The position numbers and the translations under genes were made by a program. The notes below the pieces were generated by a model, which made no database searches, was not told the origin of the DNA, and saw only the letters and a list, made by a program, of their open reading frames with translations. Positions 16,387 to 58,221 of a stretch of 64,000 nt of DNA are shown here, in pieces. Every line of letters begins with the position of its first letter. Position 1 is the stretch's first letter. This DNA comes from Tubulanus polymorphus (Eukaryota; Nemertea; Palaeonemertea; Tubulaniformes; Tubulanidae), in contig NC_134031.1 of assembly GCF_964204645.1 (NCBI RefSeq), forward strand, positions 19,589,307 to 19,653,306. Reading direction: 5' to 3'.

Positions 16387-17561
16387 CAAATATTATTTGA
16401 ATTGAATTGATTCTTCTCGTCGGTCGGTTTGAACTTCAGGGGCAACTGCGGCTCAGCAGTAGACGATGCGCTGAAACGCGCGCACCGTGAAGAGAAATCG
16501 GTCCGATTTATTCGACGATGCGCTGATGTTGATTGCATTACTAACCGATGAAACCAGTTTGAATGAGAAGCAGTCATGGAGAAATTCGCGCGAAGTACTC
16601 GTTAATGGCTTATCTATTGAGGACGCGACGACTGCGACGAAAGGGCAATATGGTACGCTTACGGCGTTGACGCCTGCGAACGCAAATCTAATAGCAGTTT
16701 ATGTTGGAAATTAACTTAAACAAATCGCGTTACATCCTCGCACGACGTCGATATTATTAACGAACGCCGAATCGCAATTCGATGACGGTTTGAGAAGGCT
16801 TTTAAGTCGGTGATAAGTGGGCTAAATCTATTCTTTGACAAAAGCGACGCTGATTGGATCTGCGACGGTTGCCGATTGTGGCGACAATTTGCGACGATTG
16901 ATGTACAATGATTGTCGAATAGAATTAATAGCTAATACCTGATATACATTGATCGGTCGTCTCATCTCAGGCGATGCGATAATAATACGCTATCTATTTG
17001 TTATCGAATATAATTGTCTTTCCTCTGCAAACTGTGAACACTTATCCTTTGAATAATATCACTTTCTTCAGTCGTTTTATACTCATAAAACAAATCTGAT
17101 TATGAATTCTTATCATAGATATCGGGATAAGATTTTCACAATTTCATACATTTCGTATTAGACGACAATGTTCTGATGCTCTCCGTGATCTCTTCCTGAT
17201 CTGTCGAGACCCATTTTCGGTAATTCATTTATTCCATACGCATTGGGTGGGGGTGGGGGTCAGTGCAATTGCGTACCCTAATTGCGTACCCTAGATTTAT
17301 GTGAGAAAATGGCCGGCAAAAGGGAAGGGGGATGAGAAATTCAAAATAATTGAATTATCCTAAAGTATAGAACGGATCGCTATAATCTCAGCATTAACAC
17401 AAATATAGAATATATTGTATTCCTCGAAATCCTGTATAATTTGGTCTTTATCGAATCTGGGAATATCATTTTGGTTAACAGTGTCTTTTCTACGCTTATT
17501 AAGATCTTGGTTACCACTGGGATAGGCTCTTAGACAGTATTGTCAAACCACAGCTCGGTAA
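16387..17561. other. Non-coding stretch
   Basis: No gene seen. It contains a G-rich tract (GGGTGGGGGTGGGGGT at about 17246) and an adjacent short direct duplication of AATTGCGTACCCT (about 17269-17293). Confidence 0.45.
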
Positions 17562-17746
17562 TCACGATTGATAGAACACTATATCCGTGTTGACGCGATG
17601 TAGAGAGAATCCCACAATGATAAGGAAAAAGTCCGAAAATGTAACTTTGAGATAGTAGTTTATTCAACGTTTCGACTATATCCTAATAGTCATCTTCAGG
17701 AATAATGAATAATCTTATTCGTGAAGATGACTATTAGGATATAGTC

Positions 17747-17961
17747 GAAACGTTGAATAAACTACACTAGCTCAAGGAATACAGTATTCCTGAAGATGGC
17801 TATTAGGATATAGGCGAAACGTTGAATAAACTACACTAGCTCAAGGAATACTGTATTCCTGAAGATGACTATTACGATATAGTCGAAACGTTGAATAAAC
17901 TACACTAGCTCAAGGAATACAGTATTCCTGAAGATGACTATTAGGATAAAGTAGAAACGTT
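17747..17961 (+). repeat. 69-bp tandem repeat, three plus-strand units
   Basis: The GAAACGTT element recurs at 17747, 17816, 17885 and 17954, an exact 69-bp period. Each unit reads GTTGAATAAACTACACTAGC ... TATTCCTGAAGATGACTAT ... ATAGTCGAAAC. The units differ by only a few substitutions, so the expansion is recent or homogenised. Confidence 0.85.
17819..17891 (+). ncRNA. Candidate type III hammerhead ribozyme (best copy)
   Basis: Read as a hammerhead: the stem III strand ACGT (17819-17822) pairs with ACGT at 17888-17891. The base before the predicted cleavage point is T17823. Stem I is GAATA (17824-17828) with TATTC (17854-17858). The conserved box CTGAAGA (CUGANGA) is at 17859-17865. Stem II is GACTAT (17867-17872) with ATAGTC (17879-17884), closing a 6-nt loop. 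GAAA follows at 17885-17888. One extra T (17866) sits between the core and stem II; an extra nucleotide at this place is known from a natural viroid hammerhead. The units at 17750 and 17888 have one or more stem II mismatches, and the unit ending at 17754 has GTGAAGA, so those copies look weakened. Confidence 0.6.
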
Positions 17962-18026
17962 GAATAAACTACTATCTCAAAGTTATATTTTCGGACTTTT
18001 TCCTTATCATTGTGGGATTCTCTCTA

Positions 18027-18611
18027 CACAGCTCGGTAACTTGCATCCTCCGTAGATACAACGAAAAACAAAGGAAAATCCAAAAGATAATATTCCATAT
18101 CATTTCGTTCATTTATTTTCGTTCTCATAGAATATCTACAATATTTTTCTTCATATATTTCACTTTATATATTTTCACATATACATATATTACTTTTTAC
18201 ACGACACATACCGGGGTTGTGAACCCACTATGTAACTCTATTATGCTTTGTTCACACAGCGGCCAGCTCATGTTTATAAAACTAGCACCAAATGCACAAA
18301 ATACACAACAACAACAAAAGAATAAACGCGGCAGTGATTCTTTCGGAGTTATTTCTTATTTCTAAAAAGAAACTGAAAATTCTAATTTCTGTTTAAAATC
18401 GTGCCCTATTAGTTCATTAAGACTCGCATTGGGTAACGAGCCAGAATTTGGGCCATGATTTTCATGATTTTTTTCGTCGCTGTAGTTATGATATATACGC
18501 AAGTTTGTACAGATAAAATGCAAAAGACGTGAAGAGAACAACGCTGTATTCATTGTCCGTGCCCGATCTACAGATATAGACCCACTCGCGGATTGTTTTA
18601 CGAAACTATAG
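18027..18611. other. Non-coding, probable barhl 3' flank/3'UTR
   Basis: AT-rich stretch just downstream (in gene sense) of the barhl stop codon. No coding feature and no clear polyadenylation signal close to the stop on the minus strand. The open frame at 18012-18365 (+) is low-complexity and starts within the repeat element. Confidence 0.4.
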
Positions 18612-40451: not shown

Positions 40452-40655
40452 ATCACCATTGATAAGACACTATATCTGTGTTGTGATGATAATATAAAGA
40501 GAATCCCACAATAATAAAGAAAAATAAACTCCGAAAATGTTTCATTGAGCATGTAGTTTATTCACGTTTCGACTATGTTCTATAGTCATCTTGTCGTTCC
40601 GGGAGATTATTATTAAGATATAGTGGAAAGGTTGAATAAACTACTAGCTCATTGA
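40452..40655. mobile_element. Decayed copy of the hammerhead-bearing element
   Basis: It starts TCACCATTGATAAGACACTA, matching the left extension of the 17.6-kb element (TCACGATTGATAGAACACTA), then GAGAATCCCACAATAATAAAG. On the minus strand a remnant core has stem II GACTAT-AGAAC-ATAGTC followed by GAAACGTG. The plus-strand half is diverged (ATATAGTGGAAAGGTTGAAT). This defines the shared left end of the family. Confidence 0.6.
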
Positions 40656-45807: not shown

Positions 45808-46097
45808 TATTATTACTGTAGACTAACAGCTTTTCTGTATTACTGTAGACTAACAGCTTTTCTGTATTACTGTAGAATAACAGCTTTTCTGTATTACTGT
45901 AGACTAACAGCTTTTCTGTATTACTGTAGAATAACAGCTATTCTGTATTACTGTAGAATAACAGCTATTCTGTATTACTTTAGAATAACTGACTGCTATT
46001 CTGTATTACTGTAGACTAACAGCTTTTCTGTATTACTGAAGTCTAACAGCTATTCTGTATTACCGCAGAATAGCTCACTGCTATTCTGTATTACCGG
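45808..46097 (+). repeat. 27-bp minisatellite (about 10 units)
   Basis: Tandem units of TATTACTGTAGACTAACAGC plus TTTTCTG, period 27 bp. Variants alternate GACTAAC/GAATAAC and TTTTC/TATTC. The array becomes irregular toward 46097 with insertions. Because 27 is divisible by three, one plus frame stays open as a nine-residue repeat (YYCRLTAFL). I regard that as a by-product, not a gene. It lies just beyond the 3' end of the TMEM201-like gene. Confidence 0.9.
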
Positions 46098-57003: not shown

Positions 57004-58221
57004 CTCATCGCAGTAGGTCAACGGGCCAATGATCTTTGGATAGGACACTTTTTGTATATAACCCGGGCAGCACGGGGCGTCGCAGACAGTGACGTCACGG
57101 AACTTCTTCCATCCTCGCATGCAGCATAGAAACTGAAATGAATATTGAAAAGGGATCATCTTTCATCGGCAGTTCTGTAGCTACTTTTTGTAGATATACG
57201 AATGAAATTCAGCAGTTATACAGAAAGCTAGCTGATTTCTTGAGCTATATCTTATCATCATATTCAGGAATGCCGAATATTCCTGATGATGACTTAAGGA
57301 TAAAGTCCAATGAAATATAGGCTGAGAAAACTTTTCGGATTCGTATTTCTTTTTTATTATTTTTGGTTTTGTCTTTCATCACGGTTTGTAACCCGGTAAG
57401 AGTCGCGTTTCACCGAGATTCCATTAGAAAATAGAAAAAATGACCCGATTATGATTTTAACTTGGCACCTTTCTGGGTGAAATTTCTCTTCCTGAGGTAT
57501 AGACGAGAAATGTGGCGGCGGTGGCGGCGGCAATCAACGACGAGAAAAAAGGTGAATCCATCATGAAACCGTGGATTCATTGTACCCGAATCATGCATTG
57601 ATGATCCCTGTCGAGTGCCATTCATTAGTGAGTGACGAAATAAATGACTTGTATCGTCAATAATCGTCACTGAAAGTCGATGGTTTTGCGGAGGAGGAGA
57701 TCAACTTGCATCTCAAATCATCGGACTATTTAACTGATGTCATATTGTCCACAAATTTACTCAAATATTCTAAAACGATTTAGTTTCTACTGTGTTAATT
57801 TGGGTATGATCGACTAAATTTGAGATTGACGTCGACTAGCTTTATTGGTTGCAAATTGAAATTAGATATATATTACACTATACTAATACGATATTAAAAT
57901 TTGTAATATTATAAAGAAAAATCTGAAATATTACAACAATAAACAGAATGTGATATGTAATGAATGATTCTAATACGACAGCAACGATCGAAAAACTTCA
58001 TGAGACGAACTTTTAATTCATTTCAGTTAAGGAACAAAATATTATTGCACGCCAAAAATCCACGTACAAAACTGATATTTGATCGTTTGATCTGACGCGA
58101 AAAATTAACAAATGTATGATTTATTTACCTGGTCGTCCGCATTGGCATCGTTCCAGGTGAAGACAACGAGGAAAGAACAGAATAAAATCCAAGTCAATTT
58201 GCTGCTTCTTCTGGAAAACAT
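57004..58221 (-). CDS. Small secreted Cys-rich protein, first two exons (3' end not resolved)
   Basis: Exon 1 (58221-58129) encodes MFSRRSSKLTWILFCSFLVV ... NDANADDQ, a signal peptide with cleavage probably after ANA, and ends at a GTAAAT donor. Exon 2 (57132-57004) follows a TTCATTTCAG acceptor in phase 0 and encodes FLCCMRGWKKFRDVTVCDAP, then CCPGYIQK ... LTYCDE, before GTAATA. The CC-x3-W ... C ... CCPGY pattern resembles the end of EMI/EGF-like regions, but the family is not recognised. If exon 2 is instead terminal, the frame runs VISKIEKK ... to a stop at about 56956. A candidate last exon (LCKFRDEVK, stop, then AATAAA) begins near 56647, unproven. Confidence is in the two exons, not the gene end. 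Confidence 0.5.
57227..57335 (+). mobile_element. Decayed copy of the hammerhead-bearing element
   Basis: GAATATTCCTGATGATGACT retains a perfect CTGATGA core. It is followed by the stem II-like GACTTA ... TAAAGTC, then CCAATGAAAT where GAAA should follow directly, so the core is interrupted. An inverted GAGCTATATCTTATCATCAT arm precedes it. It lies in intron 1 of the secreted Cys-rich gene. Confidence 0.5.

Follow-up and report, generated by a model that had tools for sequence, protein, structure and literature searches.

The 465-bp stretch at 17562..18026 of the window (the whole 64,000-nt stretch of Tubulanus polymorphus DNA analysed here) is a short and only partial insertion of a Penelope-type retrotransposon, or Penelope-like element (PLE), a known kind of element. 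It consists of two copies of a PLE 5′ end joined head to head between direct repeats, with one hammerhead core on one arm and four on the other (Table 1). The inverted arms (17599-17710 and 17917-18028) proved longer than the 104 bp originally predicted, with 112 nt and 96% complementarity, and the predicted 13-bp flanking repeat is exact. The predicted 69-bp tandem period was recovered by TRF between 17716 and 17972 (period 69, 3.7 copies, 94% matches) and is also apparent in three 119-nt copies spaced 69 + 69. The left PLE match, which shares 90% identity with the PLE unit of locus L064 across ref 1-104 and 100% across ref -42..0, stops at 17708-17710, and the right PLE match starts at 17715 (ref -39). 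Folded as RNA, the element forms a long hairpin (-230.6 kcal/mol). No ORF lies between the arms, so that the copy has no reverse transcriptase (RT) of its own and is a non-autonomous fragment.

Elsewhere in the window, 40452-40633 carries the remnant of an old PLE 5′-end insertion with head-to-head arms (~70-77% like PLE), 57278-57310 is a degenerate short stretch that resembles the PLE hammerhead region (85% over 34 bp) and has CTGATGA, and 45811-46094 is a separate tandem repeat with a period of 27 (9.2 copies) and an 81-bp higher order.

Table 1. Features of the PLE insertion, in window coordinates
Feature	Position	Strand	Remark
Target-site duplication, left copy (CACAGCTCGGTAA)	17549..17561		Exact 13-nt direct repeat; 13 nt is the mode among pairs
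Left arm, minus-oriented PLE 5′ end, tailed	17562..17710	-	Matches L064 PLE unit from ref 104 to ref -42
Tail, unique to left arm (about ref 67-104)	17562..17598	-	Right arm ends at ref 62
Left-arm hammerhead core	17666..17699	-	Zero mismatches to PLE core
Head-to-head junction of two cDNAs	17711..17714		Few bases belonging to neither cDNA
Array core 1	17721..17754	+	Catalytic C3 changed to G
Inter-core segment 1	17755..17789	+	Stem I strands and 19-nt linker; palindrome AGGAATACAGTATTCCT at 17775-17791
Array core 2	17790..17823	+	Two stem II changes, giving a G-G mismatch
Inter-core segment 2	17824..17858	+	Palindrome AGGAATACTGTATTCCT at 17844-17860
Array core 3	17859..17892	+	Only array core with undamaged core and stem II; single change in loop II
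Inter-core segment 3	17893..17927	+	Palindrome AGGAATACAGTATTCCT at 17913-17929
Array core 4	17928..17961	+	Two stem II changes
Right arm, plus-oriented PLE 5′ end, short (ref 1-62)	17962..18026	+	92% over 63 bp
Target-site duplication, right copy (CACAGCTCGGTAA)	18027..18039		Identical to left copy

PLE families and their hammerhead motif

The search for the repeat unit and for a neighbouring Penelope-type RT that had been proposed with the original prediction was carried out on the 268-Mb genome assembly and found both. The core pattern (≤3 mismatches) occurs at 2820 places, against 0 for a reversed control, and the arm pattern at 848 places, against 0 for its control. Some of these places recur every 2.86 kb (L061, L062 and L064) and are tandem Penelope-like elements, each with an ORF of 833 aa that contains RVT_1 and GIY-YIG domains. 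The window arms correspond to the stretch immediately before this ORF, comprising the hammerhead core and part of the pseudo-LTR; the left-arm tail extends almost to the PLE start codon, and the right arm has no tail. An RT and GIY-YIG ORF is thus joined to the terminal sequence of the window element elsewhere in the genome, which bears out the prediction of a mobile element linked to Penelope.

A genome search with the 833-aa protein gave 56 listed matches (54 of 2457 candidates scored), ten of which are near full-length, stop-free and 99-100% identical, indicating that this PLE family moved recently; a protein search listed 1755 relatives among 7984 candidates scored. Given such near-identical ORF-bearing PLEs in the same genome, the window element need not belong to a separate family; the predicted lack of autonomy holds for the copy. 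ORF copies beside array-type arms (L137-L139) match at most ref 1-918, 1-306 and 1-1155, and all are broken. Two further PLE families, with ~68% and ~59% protein identity (L148, L149 and L150), carry this hammerhead motif too, in the corresponding position ahead of the ORF, and one of them has stop-free 817-aa frames (68% identity). In the L150 family, the direct hammerhead copy is without C3 and G12, and the adjoining inverted copy is intact. In a search of IMG/VR for PLE relatives, 69 stretches fit a peptide pattern and none encodes a relative; the hammerhead pattern had 0 matches there. At L063:3266-4000, a PLE 5′ end continues in frame into a different coding sequence, a fusion that may be a chimeric insertion or a capture.

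Judged by its sequence, the motif is a minimal PLE hammerhead. A strict descriptor (CTGANGA, optional N, 4-bp stem II, GAAA) matched twice in the window, both times inside this element, compared to a mean of 0.08 and a maximum of 1 match in 50 block-shuffled windows. The hammerhead letters are as first described; however, the four plus-strand cores are unequal, three of them being damaged in the core or stem II, and a CUGANGA...GAAA core with an NUH cut site is found in the left arm and in the core at 17859. Numbering by hammerhead convention, we take T17823, the last T of array core 2, to be the cut site of the hammerhead made with core 3. The covariation in stems I and II proposed as a check was observed across the three PLE families, with two-sided changes at 7 of 12 pairs and 91.8% of stem cells paired versus 28-41% with slid partners, in an alignment of six distinct rows only, two of which come from the window. 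The other proposed check, a covariance-model search with Rfam, gave no hammerhead match at gathering score or at E≤10, in a search run without a known PLE hammerhead as positive control; the refuting conditions set out with the original prediction thus gave a divided result. Matches at E up to 10 to microRNA and other names, strongest on the inverted arms, lie below gathering scores and were taken as by-products of hairpins.

An extra T that follows the CUGANGA box, and that had been seen as a threat to activity, is unpaired and present in all rows of the three PLE families. An extra U at this place reportedly accelerates a viroid hammerhead, a finding of De la Pena and Flores from 2001. The printed template of an anole PLE also has this U, as CUGAGGA-U-G, and its hammerhead is described as cleaving only when the PLE protein is added (PMC11167929). 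Because the extra T occurs in all rows and in the cleaving anole hammerhead, it is no defect. In the single-copy PLE motif, the minimum-energy fold consists of stems I and II; in the second PLE family it is a variant that keeps 3 bp of stem I and has additional pairs within the core. The palindromic ACGU means that stem III requires a second copy of the motif, as in the dimers reported for hammerheads of PLEs (PMC7761336, PMC6155905). Ancestrally, the motif is a minimal PLE hammerhead, and the type III architecture originally assigned to this hammerhead-type motif arises only across neighbouring 69-bp units.

Insertion footprints and cDNA ends

The hundreds of PLE 5′-end copies in this genome are a natural record of how such elements insert. 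Arms were sampled by intact core (L001-L030, a choice biased against core-less starts), by likeness to the window element (L031-L060) and by arm alone (L077-L136). The outer ends of 162 arms fall at ref 49-82 in 73 cases and at ref 90-109 in 79 cases, with 5 beyond and 5 left out as cut at their 3′ side by the locus edge. A short end is combined with a tailed one in all 42 head-to-head pairs for which both outer ends could be measured, with 21 pairs in each orientation; three further pairs, which continue into the ORF, were left out of the 45 for this comparison. Target-site duplications (TSDs) of 10-16 nt, with a mode of 13, flank 36 of the 45 pairs, and none of 217 shuffled pairings gave a match longer than 7 nt. 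The flanks of these 36 sites are symmetric, AAA-rich before the TSD and TTT-rich after it (nine pairs were left out of the target-site table). The window element, with its ends at ref 104 and ref 62, displays the same inverted pseudo-LTRs with a one-sided tail and a short TSD, here of 13 nt.

For the anole PLE, the tail is described as lying between two RT start sites, and both target strands as being cut and extended (PMC11167929). The simplest reading of our pairs is that the two DNA ends were primed at different RT start sites. We propose that the two RT start sites are each used once per PLE insertion, on opposite strands of a symmetric target, in an obligate asymmetric twin-priming. Every pair measured here shows this asymmetry, whereas the anole in vitro report mentions no strand difference in start site (PMC11167929). 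This rule of one tail per insertion, followed in 42 of 42 pairs, narrows the models of PLE integration.

Paired arms also share variants, with a mean of 0.62 differences within one insertion (34 pairs, 11 with missing anchors being left out) against 1.78 between insertions, and therefore both arms usually come from one source. This similarity would also be expected if a single cDNA folded back and primed its own second strand, giving inverted arms with no second priming at the target, and junction palindromes of rotifer PLEs have led to a proposal of self-priming (PMC3846280). An arm copied back in this manner should nevertheless end like the first, which is contrary to the one short and one tailed end of all 42 pairs; moreover, the inner 5′ ends of paired arms often differ, and the window arms hold one core versus four. 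We thus regard such a snap-back as unlikely.

The inner ends point to the RNA that was copied. Among 109 uncut non-array arms (27 of 136 were left out as cut at the 5′ side), 30 start at ref -42..-38, more than in any other 5-nt window, and only 3 at ref -2..0, beside the hammerhead cut; in all, 79 start outside -42..-38, these 3 among them, the rest being scattered or extending further upstream. In the arm-alone sample, the corresponding figures are 14 and 2 of 53. No excess above background of copies beginning at the ribozyme cut was found among the arms. For the window element, the corresponding limits are ref -42 in the left arm and, in the right half, ref -39 at the first core. The sequence TATATATA begins 31 nt before the A at ref -40 (the A of TCATT), which makes this position a plausible TATA/Inr transcript start; PLE pseudo-LTRs with TATA and Inr-like sequence have been described (PMC3846280). 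The transcript is consequently predicted to open with the hammerhead. Since the cDNA 5′ ends cluster at this predicted start and rarely at the cut, the RNA that was copied seems, from these DNA ends, to have been mostly uncleaved at the ribozyme site. This interpretation fits the cleavage-independent insertion observed in vitro, where cleavage was unnecessary for PLE insertion (PMC11167929). The in vivo role of PLE hammerheads has been called a mystery in a review (PMC7761336).

In our favoured interpretation, the window element is probably a PLE insertion comprising only the 5′ end, moved in trans by PLE protein, with an array that would behave mostly as satellite DNA. Its arms and cores are PLE sequence, and its ends, tail and duplication fit the PLE insertions of this genome. 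The PLE endonuclease/RT would make cuts staggered by ~13 nt in the two strands of a target flanked by A/T. Reverse transcription would then be primed by one 3′ end at the near start site of the PLE RNA (ref ~62-68) and by the other at the far start site (~103), with a short ACAC/GTGT stem-loop between both sites. Both cDNAs would extend to the 5′ end of the RNA, which would start at the hammerhead, and would be joined head to head, one bringing a single hammerhead and the other a row of four. Several observations count against this interpretation: the absence of an Rfam hammerhead match, the 79 of 109 non-array arms that begin outside ref -42..-38, the 238 of 285 array units (see below) in which every catalytic letter is preserved, and the confinement of arrays to a single arm in most array-bearing pairs.

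The 69-bp array

The array unit comprises 50 bp of PLE sequence and a 19-bp linker. Its spacing is strict: among 308 pairs of neighbouring cores, 285 are separated by 69, 14 by 70 and 6 by 67, with 66, 68 and 72 observed once each. The linker gives rise to a palindrome (AGGAATACAGTATTCCT) whose pairing includes C3 and U4, and the competing hairpin predicted in each unit is accordingly present, the hammerhead fold having an energy of -7.3 kcal/mol compared to -14.6 kcal/mol for the best fold and a model probability of ~1e-6, in a model that ignores tertiary contacts and protein. Because this hairpin would hide C3-U4, the repeated units would behave mostly as satellite DNA rather than as working ribozymes.

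Variation across 285 array units amounts to 1.8% at the 11 catalytic positions, 1.2% in the linker, 0.7% in stem I and 5.5% in stem II, or 2.5% in stem II after omission of one position that is A in 108 units. All 11 catalytic letters are kept in 238 of the 285 units, 130 of which also keep all six stem II pairs. No special conservation of the catalytic positions was found across the 285 units, whose linker is conserved at least as well. The array has therefore not decayed throughout, yet the ribozyme receives no special protection. At positions 26-27 and 31-32 of the array core, the two CpG sites of the unit, the changes are mostly C to T and G to A (12, 12, 8 and 12 of 285), as would be expected with DNA methylation.

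Satellites often cluster near contig ends. The array loci lie ≤3.3 Mb from contig ends in 39 of 40 cases, versus 19 of 62 plain-arm loci, the two lists coming from different searches: the 40 were hand-read from the core matches listed, best-scored candidates only, and the 62 were hand-reduced from 100 listed of the 848 arm places, with partners merged and array loci left out. Of eight contig-end stretches, one has TTAGGG repeats and one reads N throughout. At one locus (L065, G000:C6:433500-442600), two 69-bp arrays of 22 and 40 units lie on one strand, 3.7 kb apart. Considering both the absence of special ribozyme protection and the position of the loci near contig ends, the array looks like a satellite-like expansion of the ribozyme motif, and its repeated ribozymes are probably mostly inactive. 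The self-cleavage contemplated in the original prediction is therefore weakened for the array by the linker hairpin, the damage to three of its four units and the lack of extra conservation at catalytic sites, while the intact sequence of 130 units speaks for it. Although paired arms share variants, 11 of 12 array-bearing head-to-head pairs carry the array on a single arm (L031, L032, L034, L035, L037, L039, L040, L041, L046, L054 and L136), most of these loci having been chosen because they resemble the window element. Such a pattern could arise if a large palindrome lost one of its arrays, or through conversion from another array.

Two other readings would give the array an active role. In the first, the array would be switchable: the linker hairpin would hold each 69-nt unit off until PLE protein opened it, by analogy with the protein-dependent cleavage of the anole PLE hammerhead, and arrays at the transcript start would then be cut into 69-nt RNAs. 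We consider this reading quite unlikely, and it is less well supported than asymmetric twin-priming. In the second, which we hold to be very unlikely, array transcripts would self-cleave per unit in the manner of retrozymes, the 69-nt or multimer RNAs would circularise, and PLE protein would copy the circles, so that arrays spread and lengthen. Tandem hammerheads, co-occurrence with PLEs, low GC, the strict spacing (285 of 308 at 69) and the 130 units intact by sequence are consistent with this scheme, as are the RNA circles formed by metazoan retrozymes of 150-450 bp (PMC7229834). On the contrary, the 69-bp unit is far below known retrozyme sizes, the hammerhead fold is disfavoured, the catalytic sites are without special conservation, cDNAs start at the cut in only 3 of 109 arms, and array loci cluster near contig ends, as is frequent with satellites; in addition, the arrays lie within PLE arms instead of being free repeats that end at the cut site. 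A MITE-like DNA transposon with the arms as terminal inverted repeats of a transposase-mobilised element, suggested by the 112-nt inverted arms and the direct flank, can hardly be entertained given that the arms are PLE sequence, that the ends are unequal (a 38-nt tail on one side only in the window; 42 of 42 pairs) and that the TSD length varies from 10 to 16 nt. Read as satellite DNA within a PLE 5′-end insertion, the 69-bp arrays illustrate how a ribozyme motif may become a satellite.

Relation to known elements

Tandem minimal hammerheads in PLEs are already in print (PMC7229834, PMC7761336); a limited literature search, based on parts of the sources, found neither a 69-bp satellite of PLE hammerheads nor a strict rule of one tail per insertion. 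With the minimal (dimeric) PLE hammerheads, also described in tandem (PMC7761336, PMC6155905), the motif shares its catalytic core, stems I and II and the absence of a stem III of its own, and with that of Anolis the extra U after the CUGANGA box. It differs from them, as far as described in these sources, by a 69-bp period resulting from a 19-nt linker with a hairpin over C3-U4, and by arrays of up to 40 units. Metazoan non-LTR retrozymes (PMC7229834) have in common with the array their tandem hammerhead repeats, low GC and co-occurrence with PLEs; however, the repeats described there are of 150-450 bp and not 69 bp, their hammerhead is of canonical type I and not minimal, and the flanks formed by PLE arms are particular to the array.

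The closest known systems are the Penelope/Poseidon-type PLEs, as portrayed in the reports on Anolis PAc (PMC11167929) and Adineta Pen2a (PMC3846280), which also name D. virilis Penelope. They share with the Tubulanus elements an ORF with RT and GIY-YIG, a hammerhead before or at the ORF start, an inverted pseudo-LTR containing TATA/Inr, a tail of 30-40 bp on one side, a short TSD and two RT start sites. Unlike in these systems as described, most copies here are 5′ ends without the ORF, and the tail, optional in both reports (PMC11167929, PMC3846280), is found on exactly one side in each of the 42 measurable pairs.
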